The notes beneath the pieces were generated by a model. That model was not told where the DNA came from. It made no database searches and worked only from the letters and a program-made list of their open reading frames with translations. From Stigmatella aurantiaca DW4/3-1 (GTDB taxonomy: Bacteria; Myxococcota; Myxococcia; Myxococcales; Myxococcaceae): a DNA stretch of 64,000 nucleotides. The translations under genes and the position numbers were made by a program. Numbering within the stretch: the first letter of the stretch is position 1; each line of letters opens with the position of its first letter. Below, piece by piece: positions 1,130 through 64,000 of the stretch. The stretch lies in NCBI RefSeq assembly GCF_000165485.1, contig NC_014623.1, forward strand, positions 8,698,893-8,762,892, written 5' to 3'.

Positions 1130-1241
1130 AGGGGCGGAGACCCAGGACGCCGCGGTCTCTCGTGCTCGACCGGGATGGTGGCAGAGAACCGGGTGCCGGT
1201 GGAGTCAGGTAGGAACAACGTTTGGCCATGTCCCGCGGTGT

Positions 1242-4200
1242 TCAAGGGCCTCTCACGGACCCGGCCTTCAGCGAAGCCGCACCTACCCAGGTCTCCTCCA
1301 CGGCATCCATGAGGCGATCAATGTCGATGGGCTTGGCCAGGTGCCGCTGGAATCCAGCGCTGAGCACTGCGCGACGGTCTGCGTCGCCAACGAGCGCCGT
1401 GAGGGCGATCGCCGGGATGTTTCCCCCACGCTCGGGGCTGAGGGCCCTCACCGCGCGGATGAGCGTATAGCCGTCCTGTCCAGGCATCGCGACGTCACTC
1501 AGGAGCACCTCGGGCATGAAGTCCTGGAGGAGCGCCAGCGCCGTCACCACGGACTCCGCCGTCCGGACTTCCGCGCCCGCCTGCCCCAGCAGTTCGGCCG
1601 CGGACTCGCGCGTTCCGGGCTCGTCATCCACCACGAGGATTCGCAACCCTTTGAGCCGCGAGGAGACTCCAGCGTTCTGGGGTCCGGGGCTGCCCCTGGT
1701 GTGCTCCGGCTCATCAGGACGCGCCGCGCCGGTCTGTCCCAGGCGGACAGGCATGAGCGGCAGGATGACGGTGAAAATCGCCCCCTGGCCCTTGCCTGGA
1801 CTCTCCGCTTGCACGGTCCCACCGTGGAGTTCCACCAGGTGACGGACGATCGCCAGCCCCAGACCCAATCCACCGAATACCCGGGTGCTCGAACTGTCCT
1901 CCTGCATGAACCGATCGAAAATGCGCTGCAAGGCCTCGGCTTCGATCCCTGCGCCCCTGTCACTCACCTGGAGACGGGCGGACCCCTCCATGCGCTCGAG
2001 CACCACGGACACCCGCTGGCCCTCGGCGGAGAACTTGATGGCATTGGCGAGCAGGTTCCACACAATCTGCTGCAGCCGCGTCGGATCCCCGGAGACCGGC
2101 CCGAGCGACTCATCCAGGGTGGTCTCGAACAGGATGGACTTCCTTTCGGCCTGAGCGCTCACGCTCTCGAGCGCGGCCTGGACCACCCCGGGAAGGTGGA
2201 CCGTCTGGAACTCCATCCGGAGCTTGCCGGTGACGATGCGCGAGACGTCGAGCAGATCATCGATGAGCTGCACCTGCATCTTCGTGCTCCGCTCGATGGC
2301 CTCGCTCGCGCGCTTGATCTTGGCGTCGTCCATCGTGCCACGGCGCAAGAGCTGCGCCTGCATCAGCATGGTGGACAGCGGGGTGCGGAGCTCATGGGAC
2401 AAGGTGGCCAAGAACTGATCCTTCGCGCGATTGGCTCGCTCGGCCTCCTCCTTCGCCTGCTGAGCATGGGCGAGCAACTCCGCGCGCTCGAGTTCCCGCT
2501 GCTTTCGTTCGGTGATGTCCTCGATGGCGAGCAGCAGCATGGGCAGGCCGGTGCGCGAATGAACGGAGCGCGCGGAGAGCGACATCCTCCTCTTGCCCAC
2601 GTGGGCAAAGACGTGCTCGAGCTCCAGCCCTTCCAGGAACGTGTTCTTGGCGAGCATCTGCCCCAGCGCGGCCCGCAGTTCCGGCACGTCCCATGCGCCG
2701 CCACTCAGCTCGAAGAGGCTCTTCGCCACCGTCTCGGCCGCCGACGCCGGGTAGGCCTGATAGAAGGCCTTGTTCGCCGAGAGGAGGCGCATGCGTCCAT
2801 CCAGGACCACGAGCGGCACCTGCACGGCCTCCACGATGCCCGTGGCATCATCGCGGGCCCACTCCACCTGGCTCACCTGGTGCTTGAGGGCATCGATGTC
2901 GACGAGCGACAGGATGGCACCGTCGATCCTGTTCTCGGGCGTCTTGTAGGGCCGCAGGTGCATCCGGAACCAGTGGCCGGTCCAGTTCTGGACCTCGAAC
3001 TCCCGCACCCGGGCCGTCTTCATCACCTCGGCGACCTGAGCGCCCAGGTCCGGCACGCTGACGTTCAGCGTGATGTCCTCGAGCGGCCGCCCCACATCGG
3101 AAGGCAGGACGTTCATGATGCTGCGCGCCTTCGGCGTGAAGCGCCGGATCCGCCGCTCGAGGTCCAGGATGATGACCGGGATGTCGACGGTATCGAGCAG
3201 GTTGACGAGATCGCCGTTGGCCAGGTTCAGCTCCTGGTTGCGGCTGTGGAGTTCATCGTTGACCGTGGTCAGCTCCTCGTTGGTGGACTGGAGTTCCTCC
3301 TTCGCCGTTTCGAGTTCCTCATTGAGGCTCTGGAGTTCTTCATTGCCCGAGACGAGCTCCTCGTTGGTGGAGGCGAGCGCATCGTTGGTGCGGCCATGCT
3401 CCTCGAGCAGGGACTGAAGGTAGTCCCTCGTGGCGGCCAGCTCGCGCTTCATCGCGGTGACGCCGACCGCATCCCTCGCCTTCGCCGGGCTGGCGGTCTC
3501 TGAACGGAAGGGCTTTTTCACCCGCTTTCCGGACAGGTCCCCCTCTTCGAACACCACCATCTTGAGGGGCTCCTCCTGCCCTGGCAATCCCTCGATGGGA
3601 ACCACGACGATGTCACAGAGGGACGTGGTGCCATTCTGGTCCAGCCGCACCCCTTCCACCCGGGTGGGGGCATCCTGCTTTTTCGCCTGAGCGAGCGCCA
3701 GGCGCAGAGGAGAAAGAAGCCCCTCACGCGCCATCTTGAGGATGTTGAATTGAGGCTCTCCCGGCGTCTGCTCGAGATAGGGGCCGGTGTGTCCACGAAA
3801 CTGGAGAATCTCCAGCTTGTCGTTGATGACGACGCCAGGAGGCGCGTAACGGCTCAAGAGAAGCCGGTCAATCCGCCTCACCTCATCGAGAGGGGGCCTG
3901 GCATGCGCGAGGGCGGCACGGCCGACGACCGGCTTCTCGGCCAATTTCAGCCCAGCTCCTCGTGAGAACCGGAGCCTGCTGGAGCCCGTCACCCGAGCGA
4001 GGAGCTTCTGGGCTTTGTCCACTGGCGTGAAGAACGGGCTGAGCCCCGAGACGTTCTCCGTGCGTCCGAGCAGAAGGAAGCCTGGGTCATTCAAGCAGTA
4101 GTGGAAGGTGGCCAGCGCCCTCTTCTGGAGTTCGGGGATGAAGTAGATGAGGACGTTGCGGCAGCTCACCAGATCCAGCTTGGAGAAAGGCGGGTCGCGG

Positions 4201-48759: not shown

Positions 48760-49128
48760 ATGATCCAGAAGGCACTTCTCTCCTGTTTCGCAGTGCTGGT
48801 GCTCTCGGGCGCCTTGGCCTGCTCGGATCCCGAGCCAGGCACCCTCACCTTCGACTGGTCCTTCGAGGGCAGAAGCTGCTCCCAGGAGCCCGACATCCAA
48901 GAGGTCCGGCTCGTCATCCCCGGCGTGACGCTCGACAACGGAGGCCGGTACCCGTGCGTCGTCGCAGGGGATGATGGCATCACCCTCGATGGGGTCTTCG
49001 AGGCCGGCACCTACAGCTATGTCATCGACGCGGTCGATGAGAGCGACCGCTCCATCTACTCACGCGGCGGGGACTTCACGGTGGACGGCGACACCCGCGT
49101 GGAAGTCGATCTGGCCTCGGCACGGTAG
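48760..49128 (+). CDS. Small lipoprotein, beta-sandwich type
   Basis: A 122-residue lipoprotein (lipobox SGALAC, Cys about 21). The mature part reads as a small beta-sandwich: GTLTFDWSFEGRSCSQEPDI, VRLVIPGV, GVFEAGTYSYVIDAVD and GDTRVEVDL. No function is known. It follows the regulatory-repeat gene by 93 bases in the same direction and may share its transcript. It converges on the small lipoprotein at 49144. Confidence 0.72.
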   Translation: MIQKALLSCFAVLVLSGALACSDPEPGTLTFDWSFEGRSCSQEPDIQEVRLVIPGVTLDNGGRYPCVVAGDDGITLDGVFEAGTYSYVIDAVDESDRSIYSRGGDFTVDGDTRVEVDLASAR

Positions 49129-49143
49129 CCGCCGCCGCGTGGC

Positions 49144-49512
49144 TCAGGGCACGTAGGCCGAGCCCGCCCGGGCGTCGTAGGTGCAATCGATCGTGGTGCT
49201 CGAGTAGGGCCTGCCCACGTAGAGCTGAACCGTCGCCGTGTCGGGTCCACTCACGAACGCCCGGCCCGACGAGACCCGGGAGTACCGCTTGAAGTCGCGC
49301 GCCACGTGCTCGCACTGCTGACGCGCCACTTCCAGGTTCACGTTGGAGGCAAAACCACTTCCACCGTAGCCCTGGACTTCCCGCTCCCGGTGGCCCGAGC
49401 CGTGGTGCGACACCCGTGTGGGCGATCGTTCAGGGGTCGAAGCACACGCCTGCAGGGCCATGCTTGTCAGCACCGCGAGCCCCATCACTCCTGTTTGCCA
49501 TCGAAATGCCAT
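49144..49512 (-). CDS. Small lipoprotein, tandem paralogue 1
   Basis: A 122-residue lipoprotein with lipobox ALQAC. The mature part has a His/Ser-rich segment, then NVNLEVARQQCEHVARDFK, a VSGPDTATVQLYVG block and the C-terminus DCTYDARAGSAYVP. ATG 49512 follows GGAGG; the longer frame to 49644 lacks support. It is clearly related to the next gene, with the same order of motifs, so the two arose by tandem duplication. The conserved cysteine pair could form a disulfide. The function is unknown. Confidence 0.75.
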   Translation of the reverse strand: MAFRWQTGVMGLAVLTSMALQACASTPERSPTRVSHHGSGHREREVQGYGGSGFASNVNLEVARQQCEHVARDFKRYSRVSSGRAFVSGPDTATVQLYVGRPYSSTTIDCTYDARAGSAYVP

Positions 49513-49664
49513 GACATGCCTCCGGTCCGCTTCGCCTTGGATCAAGTTGAGGACGGCCACCCCGCGAGACATCACTTCAGGCAGGCAGAGCGGCACTGTC
49601 CCGCTGGGCCCCCAGGCAGCGCGACTGGCCCTGCGCTGGAGCACCCGGTGACTCAGAGCCAGGA

Positions 49665-50018
49665 CTAGGGCACGTGCGCCACCCCCGAGCGCGCGTCATA
49701 GGTACAAGGAACGCGGTATCCCGAGGCAGGGGCGCCGATGTTCACCTGAACCCGCGCCTTCTCCGGTCCCGTCACGCTCGCCATGCCCGCCGTGGCCCCG
49801 GGATAACCTCGGACATCCCGGGCCTCCCGCTCGCACTGCTGGCGCGCCAGGAGCAGGTTCACACTGGCCTCTTCATCCCCCCCGCCCCGGCTGCCCGGCG
49901 AAGCCCGCCGCGAGGCGTGATGCTCAGACCTCTGATGGTGCGTGGCCGCACACCCCTGAAGCCCCACCCCCACCAGCGCCGCGAGCCCCACCCACCCCAT
50001 CTTCCATTGGAACGCCAT
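49665..50018 (-). CDS. Small lipoprotein, tandem paralogue 2
   Basis: A 117-residue lipoprotein (lipobox GLQGC) that mirrors its neighbour: MAFQWKMGWVGLAAL against MAFRWQTGVMGLAVL, then LLLARQQCEREARDV, VTGPEKARVQVNIGAP and CTYDARSGVAHVP. The two are about 45-50% identical by eye over the mature part, with the start and C-terminus best conserved. ATG 50018 follows GGGGGTGA. The mature N-terminus is His/Ser/Gly-rich and may be flexible. The function is unknown. Confidence 0.75.
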   Translation of the reverse strand: MAFQWKMGWVGLAALVGVGLQGCAATHHQRSEHHASRRASPGSRGGGDEEASVNLLLARQQCEREARDVRGYPGATAGMASVTGPEKARVQVNIGAPASGYRVPCTYDARSGVAHVP

Positions 50019-50167
50019 CACGTCACCCCCAGGAGCGATGTCCTGTTCCAAGCTTGAGGATGATGTGGGTCCGCGACATCGCCCCCCAGGGAAGGGCGCT
50101 CCCTCTCCGCCGAGCTTGGCGGAAAGCCGCCGAGGGGAGAAGCGCACGGATGAACCCTCGAACGCCT

Positions 50168-50767
50168 CTACCCCGGCTTCGTGAAGGGCACATCCAGCAC
50201 GGGCATCTTCTTGGTGCCCGGCAAATCGTAGTGCCACCACTCCATCTTGTTCCGCAGGAAGCCCGCGCCCTCCATGGCCTCCAGGAGCACCTGCCGGTGC
50301 TTGCGGGAAGCCTCGGTGCCTCCCTTGTAGCCGTGGTGCGCCGCGGGGGTGAAGTCGTCGAAGGCCGTCGGCATCTCCACCGCGGCCCCCTCCAGCGTCA
50401 CCAACGTCAGGTCCACCGCCGCCCCGCGGTTGTGGTTCGAGCCAAACTTCGGATTCGCCACGTACCCAGGTTTCGGAACGAGCTTCCACATCTCCCACTG
50501 CACCGCCCGGGGCCGGTAGCAGTCGTACACCTTCACGCGGTAACCCTTCGGCCGCAGCACGTCCGCCGCCTGCTTCAACCGCCGGGCCGCGTCCGGCAAG
50601 AGCAGGCACCGCGCGTCCTCTGGGTACACCTTGCGCTTCAGGAAGTTGTCCTCCGTGGCGTAGCGCATGTCCACCACCAAGTCCGGAACCGCTTCCGTGG
50701 CATCCACCAGCGGCTCACTGCCCGCCGCCAGCCACAGCGTCATCGCCAGCTTCGCCGCGGGCAGCAT
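50168..50767 (-). CDS. Exported VanX-type D-Ala-D-Ala dipeptidase
   Basis: A 199-residue zinc dipeptidase of peptidase family M15D. Zinc ligands sit in SNHNRGAAVDL (the SxHxxGxAxD motif) and EWWHY (EWWH), with the conserved arginine in VYDCYRPRAVQW. The N-terminus (AAKLAMTLWLAAGSEP) is a probable signal peptide, so it would act in the periplasm on D-Ala-D-Ala from wall turnover. That makes vancomycin resistance, which needs a cytoplasmic VanX, unlikely. ATG 50767 follows GGAAGGGG and lies one base after the queC stop. The longer frame to 50875 is rejected. Confidence 0.88.
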   Translation of the reverse strand: MLPAAKLAMTLWLAAGSEPLVDATEAVPDLVVDMRYATEDNFLKRKVYPEDARCLLLPDAARRLKQAADVLRPKGYRVKVYDCYRPRAVQWEMWKLVPKPGYVANPKFGSNHNRGAAVDLTLVTLEGAAVEMPTAFDDFTPAAHHGYKGGTEASRKHRQVLLEAMEGAGFLRNKMEWWHYDLPGTKKMPVLDVPFTKPG

Positions 50768-50768
50768 C

Positions 50769-51458
50769 TCAGGCCCCTTCCGTGTAAGGCGTTGGGTCCG
50801 GGACTCCCGCTTCCTGGAAGCCCTTCTTGCGCAGCACGCAGCTGTCACAGTGGCCGCACGCGCGGCCCTTCGCATCCGGATCGTAGCAAGAGTGCGTCAA
50901 CCCGTAGTCCACGCCCAGCCGCGTGCCCTCGCGGATGATCTGCGCCTTGGTCATCCCCGACAGCGGCGCGTGCACCTGGAAGCGCTGCCCCTCCACGCCC
51001 GCCTTCGTCGCCAGGGTGGCCACGGACGCGAAGGCCTCGATGAACTGCGGCCGGCAGTCCGGGTAGCCGCTGTAGTCCACCGCGTTCACCCCGATATAGA
51101 TGTCGTGGGCGCCCACCACCTCGGCCAGCCCGAGGGCCAGCGAGAGGAACAGCAGGTTGCGCGCCGGCACGTACGTCACCGGGATGCCGTGGGACATCTC
51201 CGTCTCCGGCCGGTCCTTCGGCACCTCGATGTCCGCCGTCAACGCCGAGCCCCCGATGCCGCGCAGGTCCAACGGGACGATCCGGAAGTCCCGCGCACCC
51301 ATCGTCTCGGCCACCTGGCGGGCACGCTCCAGCTCCACGGCGTGGCGTTGTCCATAGTGGATGGCCAGGCACACCGGCTCGAAGCCGTCCGCCTTCGCCA
51401 TCGCCAGACAGGTGGTGGAGTCCAACCCACCCGACAACAACACCACGGCCTTCTTCAT
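50769..51458 (-). CDS. queC: 7-cyano-7-deazaguanine (preQ0) synthase
   Basis: A 229-residue enzyme that converts 7-carboxy-7-deazaguanine to preQ0 in queuosine synthesis, using ATP and ammonia. The PP-loop is [10 protein letters not shown] at the N-terminus, and the C-terminal zinc site has four cysteines in [33 protein letters not shown] is the typical QueC segment. Its ATG overlaps the stop of the upstream lipoprotein gene (TGATG). No other queuosine gene (queD, queE, queF) is in the window. Confidence 0.95.
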
Positions 51459-52060
51459 CAGTTCACCCGCGTTCCTTCCACCGTATACACGGCCCGGCAG
51501 GGGCTCGTGCACGTGCAGTTCGTCTTACCCGGGATGAAGTCATCCGTCAGCGTTCCGCACGCGCGCTCCACGTCGTATCCCGTCGGGGTGGGCCCCGGCG
51601 GCTGCCCCCCTCCATCCGGCACGCCCCCATCCACCAACCCCGAGCACCGGCGGCCAATCAGCGTGTCCTGGCTGTTGCTCAACAAGAGAACATCCAGCGC
51701 CTCCTCGACCTCCGCGCCCTCGCAGCTCGGCCCACAGCTCGGCGGGCGGGTCGACGCACGGTGGACGGACACCACCCGCGCCCCCGAGTACCCCGCATCC
51801 CGCGCGAAACCCTGCACGGTGAGCCAGCCCTGGGGCTGATCCGCGTTGCGCGAGAACGTTCCATCGAACTGGAAGGTGCCCGCGTCACTGAGCGACGCGA
51901 AGTCCGGCCCCTTCAGGTCGCACGTGGTGCGCTGGCGGTCCACCGTGGCCTCGAAGCGGAAGGTTCCCAGGACTTGATCTCCTGGGAACACGGGGTCGTT
52001 GATGCAGGCGGCCACCACGGCCAGGACGGCGAGGAGCAGGGCAATGCGTTGGAGGTTCAT
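51458..52060 (-). CDS. Cysteine-containing lipoprotein
   Basis: A 200-residue lipoprotein (lipobox VAAC, Cys about 19). The mature part begins [19 protein letters not shown], a beta-sandwich-like start. It ends in a cysteine-rich stretch ([15 protein letters not shown]), with further Cys pairs at [10 protein letters not shown] Gly/Pro linker sits between. No enzyme motif is visible. It starts 12 bases after the giant TPR gene stops and overlaps queC, so it belongs to that transcript. Confidence 0.75.
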
Positions 52061-52072
52061 TCGCCTCGCAGA

Positions 52073-55000
52073 CTACACGAGCTCCAGCGCCGCGAGCGCC
52101 ACCGCGCGGAACGGCTCGCTGGTGGCCAGCACCGTTCCCACCTCCACGGTGCGGGGATCTCCTCCCCGGACCTCCGGCGCCAGCTGGGCCAGCACCCGTC
52201 CCGCCGCGAGCGACGCGGGCACCGCCCGGAAGGACGCCACCGCTGCCTCCCGAAGGCCCGGCACCTCGCCGGGGCGTGCCAGGGCCGCCCCCTTCTCACC
52301 GAAGCTCAGCGCCAGCGCGCACAGGAAGCCCAGCTCCACCGGGCCAAAGCACGTGAGCGCTCCCGCCCCTACCACCAGCTCGTCCGGCCCCAGGAGGTAC
52401 GCTTCCACGCCTCCTTCTGGATCCAGCAGCACGCGCACCCTGTCCGCCCCCAGGGCTTCCAACGTGGGCCGCAGGGCCGCGTACAGGCGCGGGAGGCTCT
52501 CGCCCGTCACCGCCAGCGCCCCAGGGGGCGCCGGGTGGCGGAACTCCGCCGGCGATGGCAGGGGCGAGATGTGGACGGCCACGGCCGGCGCCTCGCTGGA
52601 GGACAACGCCGCGGCGATTCCGTCCACACGATCCGCGGCCTCGTTGCGGCCCAGCAGCCGCAGCGCCTCCGCGAACAGCGTCCACCCATCCACATCCACC
52701 GGCCGCTCCCGCAGGAGCACCGGCCAGAGCCGGGAGGCCAGCGCCGCGCCCTCGGGGGCGGGAGAGAGCCGCTCGGCCACCAGGCGCGTGGCCTCCGCCG
52801 AGAGCGCCTGCCGCTCCAGGAGCCGCCCCGCCAACCGCGCCGCGAATGGAAGGAGCTGGGCGTTCAAGTACTCCCGGAGAATGGACTCCAGCTCCGAAGG
52901 CACCTCGGTCAACCGCTCGCGCAGCAGCAGCGCCTCGCCCGTGAGCCCCCGCTCCTCCGCCAGCCGCACGCGGCGCGCGAGCCGCTCCGGGGTCTCCGGG
53001 AGGGCCTCGAGCTGCGCCGCCGCGTCCGCGGGCCGCCACAGGGCCTCGTAGGCATCCGCCCACCGCTCCCGGTAGGGCTCCAGTGCCCCGGCCCCCGCCA
53101 GGGACTCCAGGCGCTCGGCCATCGCCACGAAGGCGGCGCTCTCGTCCTTCTCGTCGATCAGCTCGAGCAGGTGCTTCACCGCGGTCTGGCTCGTGGCGTC
53201 CTCGGCCAGAGCCTGCTCGAAGGACTGCCGCGCCCGGGCCCGCTGGGAGAGCCCCAGCAGGAGCTCGCCGCGCTCCAGCCGCAGCGCCACGCGCTCTTCG
53301 AGGTTCGTCTCCCCCTCGATGAGCTGCTCCAGGGTCTGCTCCGCATCCTCCCGGTGGCCCTCGGCGCGCTCGTGCCCCAGGCGCTCGCGCAGCAGCTCCG
53401 CGCGCCGCTCCGGCCAATGCTCCGCCGCCACCCCGAGCGATTCGATGCGCCTCGCGGCAGGCAAGGACCTCACGTGGATGAGCACCACCTCGGCGAGCGC
53501 TTCCGGCAGCTGCCCCAGCGACGTCAGCAGGCCTGGCAGGCGCTCCGAGAAGTGCTTCTGGACGCTGAGCTGCTCGAAGGCGCGCAGGCGCAGTTCTCCG
53601 GGCGCGGACGCCGCATCGAGCACCTCGTCCCGCAGCGCCGTGCTCCGCTCTGGGTCCCGCTCCGCGAGGCGCTCCGCCAGCGACAGCAACCCCGCGAAGT
53701 CCCCTTCCGCGCGCAGCCCCTTGACCAGCCGGTCCACGGACACGGTGGACACGTCCGGCTCCGCCACGAGCGCCCAAAGCGCCTCGCGCACGCGAACCTC
53801 GTCCCCCGCGCGCTCGGCCAGGGCGAGCGCGTCGGACAGGCGGCCTTCGGCCAGCGCTGGCTGGAAGCCCACCTCCACCGCCCGCGCCGGAGCCCCCAGC
53901 CGGAGGAAGCGCTCCGCCCACTCCGAAGGTGTCAGGGCCTTGGGCGCCTCGGCCACGAGCCGCTCCAGCACTTCCAACGCCTCGGCCGCGTCTCCCGCCT
54001 CTTCCCAGAGGCCCGCCGACTCCAGCAGCAACTCGGACTGCTCGTCCGCCTTCGCGGCGCGCGCCGCCAACACCAAGGTCTTCGCCGCGCGAGCCGTCTC
54101 TCCCGAGGCCTGGTGCAGGCGCGCCTGCAACCGCAGCGTGGACACGCCGGGCGACACGGACGCCGCCGCCTTGGCCGCCTTCAGCGCCTCCGGCAGCCGG
54201 TCCGCGGACTCGAAGTCCTCCGCGGCGGCGACGAGCAGCTCCACCTTCGTGGCCCCGTCGGCCAGCTCCGACCGCGCCAGACGAACCTCCGCGCGGCGGG
54301 CGGGGGCATCCGCCAGCAGGGGCTCCAGCGAATCCAGCGCGTCGGCATAGCCCACCCCCGAGGGGCCCTGTGCCACCACCCCCTCCAGCGCCTGACGCGC
54401 CAGGGGGATTTGCCCCGCCGCGCGGGCGAGCGAGGCGAACTCCAACCGCAACAGGGCCGCCTCATCGGCGTCCTCCGTCCGGTTCACCAGCCGCTCCAGC
54501 GCCTCCAGCAGGCGGACGGTGTCGCCGCGCTGGCGCAAGCCCCCCACGAGTTGGCGCAACGCCGCCTCGTGCGCGGGATCCGCCTGGGCGGCCCGCTGCC
54601 GCAACTTCCAGGCCCAGTCCTCATCGGCCAGATGGGCTTCGGCCACGGAGGCGGCCGCCAGCAGCATCTCCGCGGCGCGGGTTCCTCCCACGGCGCTGGC
54701 GCCCGACTCGTACACCTCTAGCAACTCACTGTGCCGCTCCAGGGCGCGCAGCCCCTGCACCGCCCGGTCGATGATGGCGCTGTCCGCGGGATGCAGGCGC
54801 GCCAGCGGCAACAGCGCATCGATGGCCTGACTGGGATCCTCGAAGAGATCCGCGGCGCGGCGGTAGAGCACCTCCGCCGTCGCGCCATCCGCCTTGCGCG
54901 CGAGCTGAATCGAGGTGCGGAAGAGGCCAGGGTTGTTGCCAGTACGGGCGTAGGCCTCCGACAGGAGTGACAGCGCCTCCTGGCCCCGCTCCCCGTCCGG

Positions 55001-58000
55001 GTCCAACGCCACCACCGCCTCGAAGGCGTCCGCCGCGTCCTGGTACGCGCCGATGGAGAGCGAGGCATGTCCCAAACGCAGCCACGTCCGCACCCGCACG
55101 GGGACAGGGAGTCCTTGTCCCACCGCCACCAGGCGCCGGTCATAAGGTTGTGAAGCGCTCGGACCGCCCCCTTGCGCCGCCAGCTCCGCGCGCGCGGCGA
55201 GGGCGTTCATGTCCTCGCCTGCCTCGGCGAGGTACGCGTCGAAGGCCTCGGCGGCCAGCAGGGTCTCCCCCGCTTCCAGCAGGCGCTCCGCGCGCTCACG
55301 CAGCAGCGGCAGGGCCTCCTCGTCCGTCACCGCGGCCGCGCGCTGCGCGAGCAGGTCCACCAACCGGCGCACGTCCCCCGACATCCGCTCGCGCAACAGC
55401 TCGAAGGCCTCGGTGTTCGTGGGATCCAGCTCGAAGGCCTGATCCTCGCACAGCCTGGCGCGCTCCAAGGCGCCGTCTTCCCGGAAGTAGCGCGCCGCGG
55501 ACAGGTAACTCGCGGCGGCCGCCTGGGGAGGCTGGCGCTGCGCCCGCCGCAGCATCAACGCCGCAAGCGAGTGCGTGTCGCCCGTCTCCGTCAGGAATTC
55601 CCTCTGGCGCGTGAAGACCGGCTCGCGGAACGGGTCGGCCTCCAGAAGGATGGCGTCGAACTCCGCGGCATCCTCCACACGCCCCACCTCATGGAGCAGC
55701 TCCGCGGTCTGGGCGGTGAGTTCCAAATCATCCGGGGCAGCGGCCCGGGCGGCGAGCAATGCAATGACGGCCGCCTCGGGACGCCCGGCGCGCTCCCGGT
55801 AGAGCGAGGCCGCGCGGCGCAGCAGGCTCGAGCGGCGCTCGGCTTCCGGCTCCTCCTCGGCGCACTCCTCGTACCAGGCGGCCAGCTCCGCGAACCGTCC
55901 GTCCCGCGCCAGCAGCTCCGACAGGAGCTTCTCCGCCTCTTTCAGCCCCCGGTCCCGGCGCAGCGCCTCCCGGAGACAGGCTTCCGCCTTGACCGCGTCG
56001 TCCAGCCCGCCCAGGTACAGCCGCGTCAGGCGCAGCAACACCTCGCCCTGCTCGCGGGCCCCCGCCTGCAACGGCAACGTGCGCTCCAGCCAGCGCGCCT
56101 GCGCGGCCGCGTCACTCCGGCGCACGGCCAGCCCCTCGCCCATCCGCGCCGTTTCGAGGTCCGCGGCCAGCGTGAAGGAGCGCTCCAGGGACTCTTCGGC
56201 CGCGAGGAGATCCAGCTTCACGTCCTGCAACAGCTCCGCGCGGCGGCGCTCGTAGGCGGCGGCCACGGCGGGCTTCTCCTGGGAGGCCAGCAGTTCCCGG
56301 AGGATGCCGAGCGTCTCGAGCGCCTCGTCCATCCGCCCCGAGTCCTCCGCGAGCCGGGCCTCTTCATCATAGGCGGCGAGGGCCGTGTCCACCTGTCCAG
56401 ACTGGACAGCGAGGGTGGCCACCCTGCGCAGCTCCACCAGCAGTTCCTGCGTCCTGCCACGCTCCCGGTAGAGCGCCGCGAGCGACTGGCGCAGGGGCAG
56501 GGGCTGGGACGCCATCTCCGCGGCCCGCGAGAGCAACGAGGCGGCCACGTTCACATCCGCCAGCGAGGCCAGGGCCCGCTCTGACAGCGCCACCAGGCGC
56601 CGGGCCGTCTCGTCCGAGGGAGGCAGCGCCTTCGCATGCGCGACGAGGGCCTCGAAGGCAGCGCGAGGATCCTCCCGCTCCAGAAGCACGGCGAGCCGCT
56701 GGACCGCTTCCTCATTCTGGGGACGCTGCGCCGCCAGCCGCCGCCAAGCCTCCACCGCGCGCTGGGTCTCTCCTGCCCGCTCGGCCAGCTCGCCGAGGCG
56801 CCGCAACGTGGCCTCCGCCACCTCGGGGGCCTTCGAGAAGTCGGCCCGCGCCGCCAACTGCGCCTGAAGGGGAAGGGCCTCCTTCACTTGGCCGGCCAGG
56901 AAGAGGAGCTCCGCGAGTTCCTCCAAGTGTTGGCCCTCGGCGGGCACCAGCGCGTGGGCCCTCTGGGCGAGGACCAACGCCCGCGCGGGCTCGGAGGCAC
57001 TCCGGGCATGGGCCGAGGCCTCCCACAACAGGCCGGCGGCCTCGGAGGGCGTCTGCTGGGAAACCGCCTCCTCCAGAAGCGTGGCAGCCTCCAACAGGCT
57101 GCCCTGGCCCACCACGAGGGCGACGAGCCGCCGGCGGACCCGCATGTCCTCAGGGACCAGGCGCAGAGACTCGCGCAGCGCGGCCTCGGCGGCGGCAGGA
57201 TCCTCCAGCTTGTCGAGGTACAGCCCCGCCAGCTCCGCGTACAACGCGGCGGCGGTGGCGGCGGGGGCATGGGGCGCCTCGGAGGCCAGGAGCGCGGCCA
57301 GCGCGGACCAGTCCTCCAGCCGCCGCAGCACCCGCTGAAGCGCGAGGGTGGCTCCAGCGTGACGGGGCGTGAGCGCGAGCGCCCCATCCAGGCTCCGCGC
57401 GGCCTCCTCCAGCTCGCCCTGCTGCTCGAGCAGCGCGGCGCGGGAGAGCAAGGCCTCCACCCGGCGAGGAAGGGGCCCCTGGCGCGCGGCTTCCGCGAGT
57501 GCTTCCGCTTCGGCCTCCGGCTGCCCCTCCCGGCGAGCCAGCGTGGCCAGCGAGAAGAAGGCCTCGCAGCGATCGACCGCGGAGAGTTCCAGCCCCAGCA
57601 CCGTCCGCAGCGCCTCACGCGCAGGCCCCCGGACATCCTTCTCCACGAGCGTGGCGGCCAACACGAGCAGGCGCTCCCGGGCGCGCTCTCCCAGGCTGGC
57701 ATCGGCGGCCACGGCCCGGCGCCAAGCCGACAACTCCGCCACCTCGTCCTGGGCCACATGGGCCAGCTCCGCCAGGGCGAGCCAGAGGGGCGCGGGTCGC
57801 TGCGCCAGACGCGCCGCCTCGGTGTAATCGTCCCGGGCCGCCTCGGCGCGGCCCGCGGCCCGGTGGATCGCGGCCCGGCGGGCGAGCAGCGTGGCGCGCT
57901 CCTCCCCCTCGGCGGCGGAGAGCTGGGTGCTCAACAGGACGAGGCGCTCGGCCTCCTCCTCGGGCGTCCCCGTGCCCGGCGTGGGCAGCAGCTCCAGCAG

Positions 58001-61000
58001 GGCCCGCGCGGCCCACTGGTCCGTGGGCTCCTCGGCGAGCAACGCGCGCAGGGCGGCGGCGGCCTCGGCAGGCCTTCCCAGGGAGAGCGCCAGCTCCGCC
58101 AGCTCCCGCCGGGCATTGCGCTGGGCCGCTCCGCGCAGCCGGGGCCAGAGTCCGGTCAGCAAGTCGGCCAGCGCATCGCGGGCCCCTGCCTTGCGGTGCA
58201 ACTCCACCAGCTCGAGCTGCGCCTCGAGGTCCGTGGGCGCATGGGCGCTGTACTGCGCCAGCAGGCGCCGGGCGGCATCGGGGCGGTTGGCGCGCACCGC
58301 GGCGGTGGCGGCCTTCCGGTTGAGCGAGAGCAGCTCGGTCTCGCGGGGAGCATCCGGGTCCGAGAGGGGCAGGGCCAGCACGGCCTCGAGATCCTCCAGG
58401 GCCCCCCGTGGGTCCGTGGGCAGCCGCAGCTCGGCCCGGCGCATGCGGGCGGGGGCGAAGGTGGCGTCGCGCTCCAGGGCCTCGGCGAGGTAGGTCTCCT
58501 CACGGCCGGTGCCCGCGGCCAGGAGGGAGGCGCGGAAGAGCAACCGGGCGCCCAGGCGCGTGTCGCCGATGAGGGCCGCCTTGCGCGCATAGAGCCGGGC
58601 GGCTTCCAACTTCTCTCCCCGCTCCAGCTCCAGCTCGGCGAGCAGCTCCAACACCTCGGTGGCCAGAGGCCCCTGAGGGTCCGCGTCCAGCGCGGAGGAC
58701 AAGCGCAGCAGGGCCGCGGGCTTCTCTCCCCGGGACAGCAGGTGGCGCGCGCTCTTGAGAAAGAGCGGCGAGGCCTCGGCCAGCCGGTCCGCGGAGACGA
58801 GCGCCTGGGCCCGGGTGGCCCACAGCTCGGCCAGCTCACGCGTCTCGCCCAGCTCCGTGTAGAGCGCCTCCAACCGGCCGGCGAGCACATCGTCCAACCG
58901 GCGCAGGGGAAAGGCCTGGGCGTAGGCGGCCACGGCGGCCTCGCGGTCCCCCAGCATCTCGCACGCGCGGCCCAGGCGGGCGCGAATATCAGCCAAGCGC
59001 TCGGGCGCGGCGGTGCGCGGCAAGGAGGACAGCAGGGACTCCAAGGCCCGCCGGGCATGCTCCGGCCGCTCGCAGCGCAGCGAGAGATCCGCCAGGTCCA
59101 GAAGCACGGCGGCATCCGGCGTCAGGCGCGCGGCCTTCTCCAGCGCCACCAGCGCCTCGCCCACCCGGCCCAGCCGCGCCTCCAGCACCCCCGCCAGCTC
59201 GCGCAAGGCCGCCGATGCCAGCCGCTTGTCGCCTTGCGCCTCGGCCACGCGCGCGCGCTCCTCCAGCGCGGTGGCCAGACCGCCCATGTCCGAGCGCTTG
59301 CGCTGCAACGCGCACAGCTCTCCCAGGGTGGGCAGGTCATCCGGCTCGGCCCGCAGCACCTCCTGGAGCGCATGGACGGACAGGTCCAGATCGAAGGTCA
59401 GGTCCCGGGCGGCCACCGCGAGGCGGCGGTACTTCTGGGCGCGCTCCTGGGGCTCCAGCGTCAACCGCGCGAGGGCCCCCAGGCACCGGGTCAGCTGCCG
59501 GCCATCCCGCTGGGCCTCGGCCAGGGCGAGCAAGGCCTCCAGCGCGGGCTTGTGGTCCGGGTCCGCTTCCAACGCGGAGGTGAGGAGGCGCTCGGCCTTC
59601 TCCGTCTGTTGAAGCCGGCCGCGGTACAGCTCTCCCGCCTCGGCCCAGAGGGCGGCGCGCTTGCCGGGCTCCTCGTACACCGCGGCGGCCTTCTCCAGCG
59701 CCTCGGCCAACTCCTGCGTGCGGCCGGTGGCCCGGAAGTACGGGATGAGCTCTTCCAGGGCCGCGAGGTCCCTCGGGTCCAGCGCGAGCGCGGCCTCCAG
59801 GTGCTCGCGGGCCCGTGCGGGATCTCCCAGCCGCGTGCGGCTCAGCCGGGCCAGGGCATGGTGGCTGGCGTGCGCGGCGCGGCGCACGGACTCCGTGCGC
59901 GGCGAGGGGCCGGCCAGCTCCAGCGCCTGGAGATACCCATCGAGCGCCTCCTGCACCTTGCCCAGCGACTCGGCCACACGCGCGGCGGCAAACAGGGGCT
60001 CGGCCTCACCGGGGAGCAGCGTCACCGCCTCGCGGTAGCGCAAGAGGGCGTTGTCGAGCTGCTGAAGCCCTTCCTCCCAGACACGGCCGGCCAACAGGTT
60101 CGCCTGCCCCACCCGGTCCAGCTCGTGCCGGGCCAAGGCCACCTCGCGCAACCGGTCCAGTGCCTTGAGGGCGCGTAGGTGCTCGCCGCCCCGGTGGCAC
60201 AGCTCGCCCAGGAGCAGCAGGGCATCGGGCTGATCCGGAGCCAGCCTGAGCGCCGCCTCGCAGTGCAGGCGCGCCCCGGCGATGTCATCCTCCGTCTGGG
60301 CGCACAGGCGAGCCAGGTGCACGTGGGCGTCGGCGGCCTCGACGGGATCCCTCGCCAGCGCGGCCAGCCGCCGGTAGGCACGCACCGCCCCGGCCCGGTC
60401 CTTCGCCAGATCCGAGGCGCGCGCCAGGGACTTGAGCGAGGGCAGATGGTCCGGCTTGAGGCCCAGCAGTTCGTGGAGTGCCTTCACCGCCACCTGGGGC
60501 GCGGTGTCGCGCGAGCAGCGCGCGGCGGCCTCGGCGGCGTGGAACGCGGCGGCATCCTCGGAGGTGCGGCGCGACAGGGCACTGAGCGCCAGGTAGCGCT
60601 CGGCGGCACGGGGGCCCTCGCCCCGGCGCTCGCGCACCACCGCCTCCCCCCAGAGCGCCGCGGGGCTCTTCTCGCGGCGGCGCAGCAAGGCCGCCGCCAC
60701 ATCCAGCGCCAGATCATGGGCCTGGGGATCCGCGACGAGCAGCGACAGGAGCCGCTCGGCGGCGAAGGGGTGTGCGTCCTGCGCATCCCCCGCCTGGAGG
60801 TAGGCCTCGCGCGCCTCGGCCAGCCGGCCCTCGGCGATGAGCGCCTCCTGCTCCGCGAAGGCCCGGGCGCCCTCGAGCGTCATCAGCAGCTCGTCGTCCG
60901 GAGCCGCTGGCGGCGGAAGCCCCCCGGCCGAGAAGCGCAGGCGCAGCCCCTTGCTGGACACCTCCGCGGCGGACAGGCGCGCCTGGTCCAACTCCGGCAT

Positions 61001-61606
61001 CTTGAAGCCGCGCGTCACCGATGCCTGCTGGCACAGCGCGGGGAGCACCCGCGTGGAGAACCCCGTGGCCCCCTGGACCTCCACCTCGGGCAGCAGCCCC
61101 AGCTCCGCCACGGCCGCGGCCAGCAGCCCCGGCACCTGCACGGAGGCGGTGGGCGAAAACCCGTAGAGGCGCACATCGTAGAGGTAGAGGGCCAGCTTCT
61201 CGCCGTCCCCATCGAAGGCCACCTTGAAGGTGACGGGGGTGCGCTCCGGGCCCTGGAGCCGGGCTTGCCCCTCGAGGTACCCCGGGCGGAAGTGGAGCTT
61301 GAGCTCCTCGATGCTGGTGAGCCGTCCGGCCAGCTCCGCCACCTTGCGGGCCACCAGGTCCGCCTCGACGGTCAGCTCCAGGAAGCCGAAGAGGAGCTTC
61401 TTGCGCTGGTAGCGCGAGGGGCCGGCGCTGAAGTTGAAGGGGAAGGTGACGTCCGGAATCTGCAGGGCGAAGTCGGTGATGGACAGGCCGGGCGCCAGCA
61501 CCAGCGGCGGAAAGCCCACGAAGGCACGCCGGTCCAACAACCGGAGCTCGGGAGAGACGGCGCGCGAGTCGAGCGCGGGCTTCGGGGAATCGCTGTCGGT
61601 GGCCAT
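52073..61606 (-). CDS. Giant TPR-repeat protein (3177 residues)
   Basis: One of the largest reading frames a myxobacterium is likely to carry outside polyketide clusters. The first 230 residues form a separate region (FVGFPPLVLAPGLSITDFAL, LYDVRLYGFSPTASVQVPG). From about residue 240 onwards, dozens of TPR-like helix pairs run for some 2700 residues, with the usual Ala/Gly/Tyr/Pro spacing (for example SGAALxLAPDQPDALLLLGELCH-like units). The last 250 residues are a different alpha/beta region with RVLLDPEGGVEAYLLGP. There is no signal peptide or membrane helix, so it is a cytoplasmic scaffold of unknown partners. It is divergent from the kinase-cyclase gene, with 167 bases between starts. Confidence 0.9.
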   Translation of the reverse strand: MATDSDSPKPALDSRAVSPELRLLDRRAFVGFPPLVLAPGLSITDFALQIPDVTFPFNFSAGPSRYQRKKLLFGFLELTVEADLVARKVAELAGRLTSIEELKLHFRPGYLEGQARLQGPERTPVTFKVAFDGDGEKLALYLYDVRLYGFSPTASVQVPGLLAAAVAELGLLPEVEVQGATGFSTRVLPALCQQASVTRGFKMPELDQARLSAAEVSSKGLRLRFSAGGLPPPAAPDDELLMTLEGARAFAEQEALIAEGRLAEAREAYLQAGDAQDAHPFAAERLLSLLVADPQAHDLALDVAAALLRRREKSPAALWGEAVVRERRGEGPRAAERYLALSALSRRTSEDAAAFHAAEAAARCSRDTAPQVAVKALHELLGLKPDHLPSLKSLARASDLAKDRAGAVRAYRRLAALARDPVEAADAHVHLARLCAQTEDDIAGARLHCEAALRLAPDQPDALLLLGELCHRGGEHLRALKALDRLREVALARHELDRVGQANLLAGRVWEEGLQQLDNALLRYREAVTLLPGEAEPLFAAARVAESLGKVQEALDGYLQALELAGPSPRTESVRRAAHASHHALARLSRTRLGDPARAREHLEAALALDPRDLAALEELIPYFRATGRTQELAEALEKAAAVYEEPGKRAALWAEAGELYRGRLQQTEKAERLLTSALEADPDHKPALEALLALAEAQRDGRQLTRCLGALARLTLEPQERAQKYRRLAVAARDLTFDLDLSVHALQEVLRAEPDDLPTLGELCALQRKRSDMGGLATALEERARVAEAQGDKRLASAALRELAGVLEARLGRVGEALVALEKAARLTPDAAVLLDLADLSLRCERPEHARRALESLLSSLPRTAAPERLADIRARLGRACEMLGDREAAVAAYAQAFPLRRLDDVLAGRLEALYTELGETRELAELWATRAQALVSADRLAEASPLFLKSARHLLSRGEKPAALLRLSSALDADPQGPLATEVLELLAELELERGEKLEAARLYARKAALIGDTRLGARLLFRASLLAAGTGREETYLAEALERDATFAPARMRRAELRLPTDPRGALEDLEAVLALPLSDPDAPRETELLSLNRKAATAAVRANRPDAARRLLAQYSAHAPTDLEAQLELVELHRKAGARDALADLLTGLWPRLRGAAQRNARRELAELALSLGRPAEAAAALRALLAEEPTDQWAARALLELLPTPGTGTPEEEAERLVLLSTQLSAAEGEERATLLARRAAIHRAAGRAEAARDDYTEAARLAQRPAPLWLALAELAHVAQDEVAELSAWRRAVAADASLGERARERLLVLAATLVEKDVRGPAREALRTVLGLELSAVDRCEAFFSLATLARREGQPEAEAEALAEAARQGPLPRRVEALLSRAALLEQQGELEEAARSLDGALALTPRHAGATLALQRVLRRLEDWSALAALLASEAPHAPAATAAALYAELAGLYLDKLEDPAAAEAALRESLRLVPEDMRVRRRLVALVVGQGSLLEAATLLEEAVSQQTPSEAAGLLWEASAHARSASEPARALVLAQRAHALVPAEGQHLEELAELLFLAGQVKEALPLQAQLAARADFSKAPEVAEATLRRLGELAERAGETQRAVEAWRRLAAQRPQNEEAVQRLAVLLEREDPRAAFEALVAHAKALPPSDETARRLVALSERALASLADVNVAASLLSRAAEMASQPLPLRQSLAALYRERGRTQELLVELRRVATLAVQSGQVDTALAAYDEEARLAEDSGRMDEALETLGILRELLASQEKPAVAAAYERRRAELLQDVKLDLLAAEESLERSFTLAADLETARMGEGLAVRRSDAAAQARWLERTLPLQAGAREQGEVLLRLTRLYLGGLDDAVKAEACLREALRRDRGLKEAEKLLSELLARDGRFAELAAWYEECAEEEPEAERRSSLLRRAASLYRERAGRPEAAVIALLAARAAAPDDLELTAQTAELLHEVGRVEDAAEFDAILLEADPFREPVFTRQREFLTETGDTHSLAALMLRRAQRQPPQAAAASYLSAARYFREDGALERARLCEDQAFELDPTNTEAFELLRERMSGDVRRLVDLLAQRAAAVTDEEALPLLRERAERLLEAGETLLAAEAFDAYLAEAGEDMNALAARAELAAQGGGPSASQPYDRRLVAVGQGLPVPVRVRTWLRLGHASLSIGAYQDAADAFEAVVALDPDGERGQEALSLLSEAYARTGNNPGLFRTSIQLARKADGATAEVLYRRAADLFEDPSQAIDALLPLARLHPADSAIIDRAVQGLRALERHSELLEVYESGASAVGGTRAAEMLLAAASVAEAHLADEDWAWKLRQRAAQADPAHEAALRQLVGGLRQRGDTVRLLEALERLVNRTEDADEAALLRLEFASLARAAGQIPLARQALEGVVAQGPSGVGYADALDSLEPLLADAPARRAEVRLARSELADGATKVELLVAAAEDFESADRLPEALKAAKAAASVSPGVSTLRLQARLHQASGETARAAKTLVLAARAAKADEQSELLLESAGLWEEAGDAAEALEVLERLVAEAPKALTPSEWAERFLRLGAPARAVEVGFQPALAEGRLSDALALAERAGDEVRVREALWALVAEPDVSTVSVDRLVKGLRAEGDFAGLLSLAERLAERDPERSTALRDEVLDAASAPGELRLRAFEQLSVQKHFSERLPGLLTSLGQLPEALAEVVLIHVRSLPAARRIESLGVAAEHWPERRAELLRERLGHERAEGHREDAEQTLEQLIEGETNLEERVALRLERGELLLGLSQRARARQSFEQALAEDATSQTAVKHLLELIDEKDESAAFVAMAERLESLAGAGALEPYRERWADAYEALWRPADAAAQLEALPETPERLARRVRLAEERGLTGEALLLRERLTEVPSELESILREYLNAQLLPFAARLAGRLLERQALSAEATRLVAERLSPAPEGAALASRLWPVLLRERPVDVDGWTLFAEALRLLGRNEAADRVDGIAAALSSSEAPAVAVHISPLPSPAEFRHPAPPGALAVTGESLPRLYAALRPTLEALGADRVRVLLDPEGGVEAYLLGPDELVVGAGALTCFGPVELGFLCALALSFGEKGAALARPGEVPGLREAAVASFRAVPASLAAGRVLAQLAPEVRGGDPRTVEVGTVLATSEPFRAVALAALELV

Positions 61607-61773
61607 CGGGGTTGAGTGCCCAGGAAGCTAACACGTGGGCTAAGCCCTCGGAATTTTTACCAATCCCCTGGCTGGAGGGCAGGCGGTACAGCGGGATTAC
61701 ACAGCGGGTGGAACTTCACCGGCCCGCGAGAGATGAACCATGCGCCGCGTGGCGTTCTCGGACAAGATGCCGG

Positions 61774-64000
61774 GTGGTGCTGCCCTCCGACACCCTGGTT
61801 CTCAATGGCCGCTTCCGGGTCCTCCAGCCTCTGGGCTCGGGCGGCATGGGACAGGTGTACCTGGGTGAGCAGGTGTCGCTGGGCCGCAAGGTGGCGATCA
61901 AGGTGCTCCACCAGGATCTGCACCTCCAGCCGGGAATGGTGGAGCGCTTCAAGCGCGAAGCCCAACTGCTGTCGGCGGTGGAGCACCCAGCGGTCGTGCG
62001 GATCATCGACTTTGGTGAGTCCGAGCACTCGGCCTGCCTGGTGATGGAGTTGGTGGAGGGCGAGAGCCTGAACGACGCGCTCCAGAAGGGCCCCCTCTCG
62101 CCGGAGCGGGCCCTCACGACGCTGCGCCAGCTCGCCGAAGGGCTGAGCGCCATCCACGCGCGGGGCATCATCCACCGCGACATCAAGCCGGAGAACGTCT
62201 TCCTCACGAAGGGCGCCCGGGGCGAACAGGCGCGGCTGCTGGACTTCGGCATCGCGCGGCTCGTCGAGCCCGATGCGGACAGCGCCGTGAGCCAGGTGGG
62301 CATGGTGCTGGGCACCCCGGAATACCTGTCCCCCGAGCAGGCCGTGGGCGCCAGGGCCGACGAGCGCAGTGACTTGTACTGCCTGGGGGTCCTGGCCTAC
62401 CGCGTGCTCTCCGGGCAGTTGCCCTTCGCGGGCCCCAGCCCGCGCCAGTTCATCGCGCAGCATGCCAGCGCCGCCCCCCTGCCCCTGGATCGCGCCGCGC
62501 CGGGGCTCGCCACGCACCCCACCCTGGTCCCGCTGGTGATGCGGCTCCTGGAGAAGGAGCCCTCCCGGCGTCTCCAGAGCGCCCACGAGCTGGCGGACGC
62601 GCTGGCCGCCGCCGCCGCGCTCCCGCTGCCCGCCTCCGCCGTGCCGCCTGGGATGGCGGCCCAGCTCCCCGGGCAACCTGTCTCCAGCGGAACGGCGGCC
62701 TTTGGTGCGTCCCCGGCCCCGGACGGAGAGGCCCCGCCCCCCAGCAACGGCCCCGTGATCTGGAGGCCCGGGGCACCGGTCCCAGAGGCCCCCGCGCCGG
62801 GAAGCAGCACCACGGCCGCCTTTGGCGGTCCCCTGCCCCCGGTCAGCTCGGGCACGGCGATCTTCGGGGCCGCGGCCCCCCCCTCCAGCGGCACGCTGAC
62901 CAGCAAGCCGCAGAACCTCACGGTGATGCTCACGAGCATCCAGGGGTTCTCCGAGCTCATCCTCCGGCAGACGCGCGACGAGCACGTGCGGACGCTGCAA
63001 ACCTATGAGGACCTCCTGGTGCCCTTGCTGCGCGAGCGCGATGGGAAGCTCGTGCAGAAGTGGGGGGACTCGCTGCTCGCGGTGTTCGGTTCCCCCACGG
63101 GGGCGGTGCTCTGCGGGATGGAGATGCAGGACCGGCTCTGGCGGCACAACCAGGATGTCGCCCCCGAGCACCAGCTCCGCGTGCGCATCTGCCTCCACAC
63201 GGGCGAGGTGCTGCTCGCCCGGGGCTCCGTGATTGGCGAGCCGATGGAGATCGCCAAGTCCGTGGAGCAGGTGGCGATGGCGGGCGAGGTGACCTTCACC
63301 GAGTCCGTGAACCTCGCGCGCAACCGGGCCGGCACGGAGAGCGAGCCCTGTGGCACCATCGCCCTGCCAGGCGTGGGCGGCGCCCTCCAGCTCTACCGCA
63401 GCAAGCGCGCCGCCGAAGGCCCTCCCTTCGGCGGCGTGGAGCGCACGGAAGCGTCCCTCGCCAAGAAGACAGGGCTCGGGGGCAAGCTGACCTCGGGCCT
63501 CTTGCGCCCGAGAACCTGGGGGTCCATGAGCGGGGGCTCCCGGGGACTCGCGGCGGGGGGCGTGGCCCTCGGGCTGCTGCTCCTGGGAAGCGTGGCCGCG
63601 GTGTGGAACTGGAACCAGAGCCCGAACGTCCAGGCGCGGCGGCTGCTGGAGGCCAACAAACCGAAAGAGGCGCTCCAGCGCATCGACGCGGTGCCCGCGG
63701 AAGCGCGGAAAAAGGACGCGGCGCTTCAGCTCACACGGGGCCGGGCGCTCCACGCCCTGGGCAATCACGGGGAGGAGTACACCACCCTGCTCGCGCTGGA
63801 GGAGGCCGGCAAGCAGGACGTGGGGCCCTCCGTGCTGGACGGGCTGGCGGAAGACTTCAGCGACGACGAGGGCAACAAGACGCTGCGCAAGCTGCTGGAA
63901 GCCCTGCCCAAGAAGCCCCTGCACGAGCACTTCGAGTCCCTGGCGGAGGGCGAATACTCCCCCAAGCAGTGGGGCGCCCTGCGCTACCTGGAGGCCGTGC
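61774..64000 (+). CDS. Ser/Thr kinase with degenerate cyclase domain, 3' truncated by window edge
   Basis: A Hanks-type kinase with a complete active site: glycine loop GSGGMGQVY, Lys43 in KVAIKVL, Glu62, HRDIKPEN (134-141) and DFGIARL (157-163). A Pro/Ala/Gly-rich linker (about 285-375) leads to a class III nucleotide cyclase domain (QNLTVMLTSIQGFSELI, KWGDSLLAVFG, HTGEVLLARGSVIG). The first metal-binding Asp is replaced by Ser (TSIQGF instead of ADIxGF), so cyclase activity is doubtful. A transmembrane helix follows (ALGLLLLGSVAAVWNW), then TPR-like helices to the window end. The start is GTG 61774 or 61777, with a poor ribosome site. The frame is still open at base 64000. Confidence 0.9.
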   Translation, partial: MVLPSDTLVLNGRFRVLQPLGSGGMGQVYLGEQVSLGRKVAIKVLHQDLHLQPGMVERFKREAQLLSAVEHPAVVRIIDFGESEHSACLVMELVEGESLNDALQKGPLSPERALTTLRQLAEGLSAIHARGIIHRDIKPENVFLTKGARGEQARLLDFGIARLVEPDADSAVSQVGMVLGTPEYLSPEQAVGARADERSDLYCLGVLAYRVLSGQLPFAGPSPRQFIAQHASAAPLPLDRAAPGLATHPTLVPLVMRLLEKEPSRRLQSAHELADALAAAAALPLPASAVPPGMAAQLPGQPVSSGTAAFGASPAPDGEAPPPSNGPVIWRPGAPVPEAPAPGSSTTAAFGGPLPPVSSGTAIFGAAAPPSSGTLTSKPQNLTVMLTSIQGFSELILRQTRDEHVRTLQTYEDLLVPLLRERDGKLVQKWGDSLLAVFGSPTGAVLCGMEMQDRLWRHNQDVAPEHQLRVRICLHTGEVLLARGSVIGEPMEIAKSVEQVAMAGEVTFTESVNLARNRAGTESEPCGTIALPGVGGALQLYRSKRAAEGPPFGGVERTEASLAKKTGLGGKLTSGLLRPRTWGSMSGGSRGLAAGGVALGLLLLGSVAAVWNWNQSPNVQARRLLEANKPKEALQRIDAVPAEARKKDAALQLTRGRALHALGNHGEEYTTLLALEEAGKQDVGPSVLDGLAEDFSDDEGNKTLRKLLEALPKKPLHEHFESLAEGEYSPKQWGALRYLEAV

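Follow-up and report, generated by a model that had tools for sequence, protein, structure and literature searches.

The window analysed here, a stretch of 64,000 nucleotides from the 10.26 Mb single-contig genome of Stigmatella aurantiaca DW4/3-1, encodes a 3177-residue TPR protein for which the best-supported mechanism is that of a GltI (AgmK)-type scaffold with a TULIP-like head. This scaffold would probably be cytosolic, with a lipid-binding head at the inner membrane and a dead M48-like tail that serves for docking, and we propose this reading tentatively, with a confidence somewhat short of even. The head would bind a lipid or another hydrophobic ligand, and the ligand-bound head would either hold the scaffold at the inner membrane or make it membrane-responsive. 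The TPR units right behind the head would bind one conserved partner and the distal superhelix would gather additional partners. Finally, the tail would dock the scaffold in the way that a related tail may dock GltI.

The scaffold protein is more interesting than its neighbour genes. It is very large and is kept in nearly all genomes of its own family, among them genomes of 2.1-2.7 Mb. Its anatomy is also testable, since it comprises a conserved module of ~930 residues, has a natural relative of 919 residues and possesses a tail whose distant forms match a known motility protein.

The scaffold gene, its family and its repeats

The gene and the parts of its product are located as follows:

52073..61606, minus strand: giant TPR scaffold gene, 3177 aa, identified by Pfam TPR repeats and by relatives
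60923..61549, minus strand: head domain (residues ~20-228), strand-rich and TULIP-like by prediction
58817..60886, minus strand: proximal TPR block (residues ~241-930), where conservation peaks
52589..58816, minus strand: distal TPR array (residues ~931-3006), of near-fixed length in the family and mostly unalignable outside it
52076..52588, minus strand: C-terminal alpha/beta domain (residues ~3007-3177), a putative shortened GltI-type tail as judged via distant orthologues; M48-like, no HExxH

The reading frame runs uninterrupted from the ATG at 61606 to the TAG at 52075-52073. Four Pfam models (TPR_1, TPR_8, TPR_11 and TPR_17) pass their cut-offs in the protein, and NCBIfam returned generic TPR-protein models alone, every one of them under its cut-off. 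One scan of named genomes yielded 52 loci, 41 of which presented a closed frame; with the window protein these gave a set of 42 full-length proteins. Because all 42 preserve the frame, the comparison indicates that the ORF is a genuine gene and not a chance frame. The length of the protein is near-fixed, with 3156-3188 residues in 39 of the 42. The three shorter proteins (2966-2994 residues) come from metagenome-assembled genomes (L102, L104 and L106), two of which appear to be small (2.3 Mb for L102, whose contig and match place agree with those of G090, and 2.7 Mb for L106, likewise with G007). Where the frame is unbroken and closed, distant orthologues range from about 2,700 to 4,850 residues, and another with an open end (L127) exceeds 5,000. 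Searches of the open-licence literature in PMC turned up no report of this protein, of its function or of any myxobacterial TULIP-TPR protein.

We determined the distribution of the gene from its head. When residues 1-229 were searched against the window's own genome, there was one strong match and the next reached E 0.69, which dismisses a paralogue of the head in this genome. A profile built from 18 heads (A1) matched 140 of 195 genomes of the phylum at E<=0.01, and 119 of 149 when only the better-quality genomes were considered. In the window's own family 92 of 96 genomes matched by our own count, which includes the genomes of 2.1-2.7 Mb and one genome (G023) whose match is a short fragment only. 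Among the named relatives that carry the head are Hyalangium, Archangium, Corallococcus and Myxococcus. In f3, a family of the same order, the profile matched 0 of 12 listed genomes, and one genome (G122) presented two strong matches. Across Myxococcota, genomes with the gene as a rule carry a single copy. A broader search of 145 genomes at E<=1 gave 122 matches; these were often weak, and we therefore relied on the profile search at E<=0.01. One of the loci (L060, BNCN01000012.1) is titled Comamonas sp. KCTC 72670; it is a myxobacterial locus whose place is as in G026, a genome of the window's family, and the title looks wrong.

As a measure of conservation along the protein we took the frequency of the commonest residue at each position, averaged over blocks of 100 residues in the alignment of the 42 proteins. 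The peak falls on residues 201-900 (0.80-0.90), ahead of the head (0.755 for residues 1-100 and 0.786 for 101-200) and of residues 2901-3177 (0.63-0.68), and the minimum lies at residues 2601-2800 (0.54 and 0.585). The same pattern extends outside the family: residues 241-930 matched 17 of 19 distant orthologues by BLAST, 15 of them collinearly, and residues 1251-2940 matched two of the 19. Among the exceptions for residues 241-930, L131 and L135 match elsewhere in the array and L129 and L136 are unmatched. In most distant orthologues the proximal block is thus the one stretch of repeats that can be aligned. The first-pass annotation had named the terminal domains, as opposed to the repeats, as the best handle on function; the termini do carry real domains, but the repeats are no poorer a handle, since the proximal ones are the most conserved part of the protein. 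We did not use the autocorrelation of the repeats, for which the offset of 34 is among the top values but 20 and 72 rank above it.

A natural short version is found in locus L041, upstream of queC, where a 919-residue orthologue keeps the head and the tail, together with roughly a third of the proximal block and a linker. This version is known from one genome; the corresponding region of its genus-mate G092 is interrupted by a stretch of N, has lost its frame and is uninformative.

The head domain

Structure prediction of both ends of the protein bore out the proposal that its termini are distinct from the array. Each carries a non-TPR domain, and neither resolves as ordinary TPR units. The head was modelled with AlphaFold2 from 34 sequences (A3, residues 1-300), giving a mean pLDDT of 82.7, with residues 1-16 and 231-233 under 50. 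Its conserved stretch, IPDVxFPFN...G, lies around residues 50-62 (alignment A1).

We compared the model with 992 chains from Foldseek using VIA-align 2. Four of the first five solved-structure matches are TULIP proteins: CETP (2obd; Z 6.5, 145 aligned, 4.1 A, model residues 14-228), BPI (1bp1; Z 6.4, 141 aligned, 3.6 A, model residues 37-228), LBP (4m4d; Z 5.2, 134 aligned, 3.8 A, model residues 74-228) and P47 (6ekt; Z 4.7, 144 aligned, with a high rmsd of 6.2 A, model residues 13-234). The third match is a 53-residue alignment to a glycopeptidase (Z 5.9), and the Z of P47 is tied with that of another match sitting on the TPR part. The alignment to BPI stretches over chain residues 1-454, that is, over both halves of BPI. 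After these TULIP proteins, the next match covering most of the head reaches Z 3.2 (82 aligned, 5.0 A), and a fifth TULIP protein, BPIFA1, is found further down at Z 3.0. Judged on an absolute scale these scores are middling; they nevertheless point to a single superfamily and stand apart from those of other folds that span the head. A DALI Z of 6.0 across 159 residues is given for TULIP-N against TULIP-C in a passage of one paper (PMC5507252), which indicates that such scores do occur inside the superfamily. The TULIP assignment is drawn from the predicted fold and we hold it with at most moderate confidence.

Sequence searches did not name the head. Pfam returned no TULIP family for the 18 heads; its one match (1 of 18 heads, E 0.17) was taken as chance, as was one PDB sequence at E 1.1. 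Comparison of the head profile with DUF4403 gave 0.6% (E 0.1), with a DUF4403 side that was shallow at six sequences; this family was found at 17 loci in 16 of 146 genomes, and six of these loci entered the comparison. For LmeA/DUF2993 (PF11209), 38 genomes gave one weak match under the cut-off and hence no profile, and DUF1439 (PF07273) was matched in 4 of 146 genomes at loci that were left out as their correct frames are unclear. YceB (3L6I) was absent among the 50 VIA-align 2 matches listed, which is no argument against a likeness to YceB. The viral structure library contained no match to the head at E 0.001 and none that was useful.

The head might alternatively adopt some other strand-rich fold, for which the TULIP matches would be an ordinary middling result; we consider this unlikely, though it deserves weight. 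Orphan models typically reach a best VIA-align 2 Z of 7-8, so that the 6.5 of the head lies within what such models give and not above this background. In addition, Foldseek against the PDB returned no match at E<=0.001 and no recognised TULIP protein among its best 50 matches, all with a probability of 0.25 or less, the first of these being START proteins and others. A START identity was itself rejected as weak (VIA-align 2 Z 2.8). The concentration of TULIP proteins among the first VIA-align 2 matches, set against the Z of 3.2 reached by other head-spanning folds, speaks for the TULIP-like reading.

It is also conceivable, and again rather unlikely, that the head is TULIP-like in fold and acts as a protein-protein or dimerisation module of a soluble scaffold that has no lipid ligand. 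Domains of known TULIP families can pair via their beta-meander, according to part of a survey of the superfamily (PMC6791001), and the conservation of the head is below that of the repeats behind it. On the other side, the IPDVxFPFN...G loop and its surroundings contain several of the head's most invariant residues, a placement that would be odd for a pure dimer interface, although this is a weak point. We retain lipid binding by a TULIP-like head in the preferred reading, in conditional form. If the head does bind lipid, TULIP domains would extend to the bacterial cytosol, and this would provide a hint at what GltI-type tails do.

The tail domain, cellular location and a possible link to gliding

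The last 298 residues were modelled with a pLDDT of 94.3. TPR-like helices continue to about model residue 126 (protein residue ~3005) and are followed by an alpha/beta domain. The distinct C-terminal region proposed from residue 2900 onwards is therefore partly upheld: there is an alpha/beta domain at the end, but residues ~2880-3005 are still TPR-like. Structural searches reflect this layout, with VIA-align 2 matches lying almost wholly in the TPR part and barely covering the alpha/beta part, and with Foldseek matches that are mostly TPR proteins; an M48-type peptidase (3c37_B) appears at rank 41 with a probability of 0.89.

We located GltI through gltJ, as a 4127-aa frame beside gltJ (C1:6965416-6967374), and compared tails by hhalign, setting the last 250 residues of distant orthologues against the final 270 of the four proteins found in the GltI position. 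Three sequences had been dropped from the tail set beforehand (L040 with a broken frame, L035 with a diverged end and L127 with an open end). The tails of 16 distant orthologues matched the four GltI tails at 99.1% (E 5.8e-19, 252 columns). The value fell to 0.0-0.1% with three column-shuffled GltI alignments, and to 9.5% and 0.1% against mid-array TPR blocks. The scaffold and GltI reached 93.9% when their mid-array blocks were compared with each other, and repeats by themselves can therefore yield high values. From these profile comparisons we regard the homology of the distant-orthologue tail to the GltI tail as firm.

The tail of the window's family did not match GltI directly (0.1% and 1.3% by hhalign). 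It matched the distant tails at 97.9% with the TPR-like helices included and at 56.1% (E 1.1e-4, 72 columns) without them. The shortened tail of the window protein may thus be the same domain, a link that is indirect and passes through the distant orthologues. A profile of 20 tails (A5) searched against the window's own genome matched GltI and two frames of 1723 and 1344 aa, and it did not detect the shortened tail of the window protein. The additional GltI-type C-terminal domains lie at C1:4732490-4733236 (L173) and C1:2738715-2739386, in the 1723- and 1344-aa frames. This suggests that a small family of proteins with GltI-type tails exists beside GltI in this genome.

Against M48, hhalign gave 88.9% for the distant orthologues, 74.5% for the window's family and 0.1% for the GltI tails. 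The HExxH motif was found in the last 300 residues of none of the 42 family proteins, none of 18 distant orthologues and none of the four GltI proteins. Given this absence of HExxH, we reject an active peptidase tail. The resemblance is weak, and descent of the tail from M48 is plausible.

The scaffold is likely cytosolic, because the window protein has no signal-like N-terminus and the highest 19-residue hydropathy is 1.7 within the first 79 residues of the 42 proteins and 1.73 over the whole window protein. The literature is not of one mind on the location of GltI: a passage of one review calls AgmK transmembrane (PMC9120999), part of another treats the threading of GltI through the peptidoglycan as an open question (PMC12288465), and a third source gives GltI neither a signal peptide nor a membrane segment (PMC3169522).

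The tail shared by the distant orthologues and GltI raises the question of whether the scaffold is itself an additional component of the gliding machinery, which we consider improbable. Among 23 chosen genomes, a GltJ match better than 1e-30 was found in 9 of the 12 with the scaffold gene and in 4 of the 11 without it; this is only a hint, because the threshold was chosen post hoc, with the table in view, and the counts are uncorrected for relatedness among the genomes. Two genomes possess the scaffold gene and present no GltJ match at 1e-15, namely G191 (rated 100% complete) and G090 (88% complete), and four genomes with GltJ are devoid of the scaffold gene. The case of G191 speaks against a strict link to gliding. 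Moreover, the scaffold gene lies at about C1:8.751-8.760 Mb, far from gltJ.

Neighbouring genes and comparison with known systems

The scaffold gene is surrounded by the following genes:

51458..52060, minus strand: lipoprotein gene, 200 aa, with a homologue in 39/41 closed loci
50769..51458, minus strand: queC, 7-cyano-7-deazaguanine synthase, 229 aa, identified by Pfam and NCBIfam
50168..50767, minus strand: M15 D-Ala-D-Ala dipeptidase (DdpX-type), 199 aa, identified by Pfam and NCBIfam
61774..64000, plus strand: divergent Ser/Thr kinase-like gene with a cyclase-like region, domains read from the translation

The layout given in the first-pass annotation was recovered throughout. A spacer of 12 bases separates the scaffold gene from the lipoprotein ATG (52060), the lipoprotein TGA (51460-51458) overlaps the queC ATG (51458) by one base, and a gap of one base lies between the queC TGA (50771-50769) and the dipeptidase ATG (50767). 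The queC product matches the Pfam family QueC (7.5e-74) and passes the cut-off of TIGR00364. The dipeptidase had been described as a VanX-type periplasmic enzyme. It is an M15 dipeptidase (Peptidase_M15, 6.1e-41) that passes the cut-off of PRK10178 (D-alanyl-D-alanine dipeptidase), but the VanX label is not supported, as the NCBIfam model for VanX reached 83/320 bits, far under its cut-off. The enzyme may be periplasmic, as the signal-like N-termini of several relatives suggest. The product of 51458..52060 matched no family in Pfam or NCBIfam; its signal-like start with a Cys and its conserved position suggest a lipoprotein. Promoter and terminator scans of 49900-52300 and an Rfam search of 49000-64000 found nothing. 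Two tandem small lipoprotein-like genes lie further along the minus strand (49665-50018 and 49144-49512); their starts are alike (MAFQWKMG... and MAFRWQTG...), perhaps through duplication. A second QueC-family gene, a 210-aa frame, is present in the same genome at C1:8370697-8371260 (L002).

Coupling of the four genes had also been proposed. Their order is indeed kept: the lipoprotein gene and queC each lie downstream of the scaffold gene in 39 of the 41 closed loci, and the dipeptidase is present in at least 4 of the 41, the remaining loci ending before its position. L099 and L100, the two loci in which the lipoprotein had no match, retain ~0.7 kb between the scaffold gene and queC. In eight more distant loci from the same order (L035, L038 and L040-L045) queC is again downstream, several of them with a lipoprotein-sized gene between, and the lipobox pattern is positive in L035, L043 and L045. 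Functional coupling is the weak part of the claim. In a Hyalangium locus (L055) the dipeptidase gene comes next after the lipoprotein gene, without an intervening queC, and in L054 queC lies ~1.3 kb beyond the lipoprotein gene; the sequence of its relative L082 stops ~0.5 kb past the lipoprotein gene. Nine loci from other classes (L128-L136) gave no queC over the 1.5-5.5 kb of downstream sequence that each provides, and L127 offers zero downstream bases to inspect. In L133, from another class, the gene after the scaffold looks in translation like an FHA-domain protein and not like a lipoprotein.

Since queC has been lost or moved in some loci, a role of queC and the dipeptidase in the work of the scaffold is not our main reading, and both look like passengers. 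That the four genes form one pathway linking queuosine, the cell wall and the scaffold is very improbable: the tight spacing and conserved order speak for it, and the absence or displacement of queC in L055, L054 and the other classes speaks against it. The kinase-like gene continues past the window edge and its start codon is uncertain. A divergent kinase gene is found upstream in 23 of 40 loci having >3.5 kb of upstream sequence, a count that leaves out a 24th match (L078) that is distant and in the opposite orientation. We regard this gene as a neighbour and claim no functional link to the scaffold.

The preferred reading, a GltI-type scaffold with a TULIP-like head, can be set beside three known systems. 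The scaffold resembles GltI/AgmK (MXAN_4863), the gliding TPR protein of Myxococcus xanthus, in being a giant TPR protein, and the C-terminal domain of GltI is homologous to that of the distant orthologues. It differs in its locus, in the shortened tail of the window's family and in its head; by our own reading GltI starts straight with TPR-like sequence, and the single strong hit that the head gives in the window's own genome is the scaffold gene. M48 peptidases such as 3c37 of Geobacter resemble the tail by Foldseek and are unlike it in respect of HExxH.

The third system is the TULIP superfamily (BPI, CETP, LBP, YceB/DUF1439, DUF4403, DUF2140, DUF2993 and P47/OrfX2), to which the head is similar in its predicted fold, near CETP, BPI, LBP and P47, and from which it differs in giving no sequence match to DUF4403 or to Pfam, in being fused to a TPR array and in belonging to a protein that shows no signal or membrane segment. 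The bacterial families covered in part of one survey are P47/OrfX2, YceB, DUF4403, DUF2140 and DUF2993 (PMC6791001). Passages there and in a second paper describe DUF4403, YceB, DUF2140 and DUF2993 as exported or anchored (PMC5507252, PMC6791001), and another version of TULIP sits in membrane-anchored Lipocone proteins, as a section of a further study has it (PMC12419801). It is possible, if rather doubtful, that a cytosolic bacterial TULIP domain conserved across the phylum heads giant GltI-type scaffolds and makes them lipid-responsive, as a counterpart of the eukaryotic TULIP lipid-transfer tethers equipped with a protein-interaction arm.
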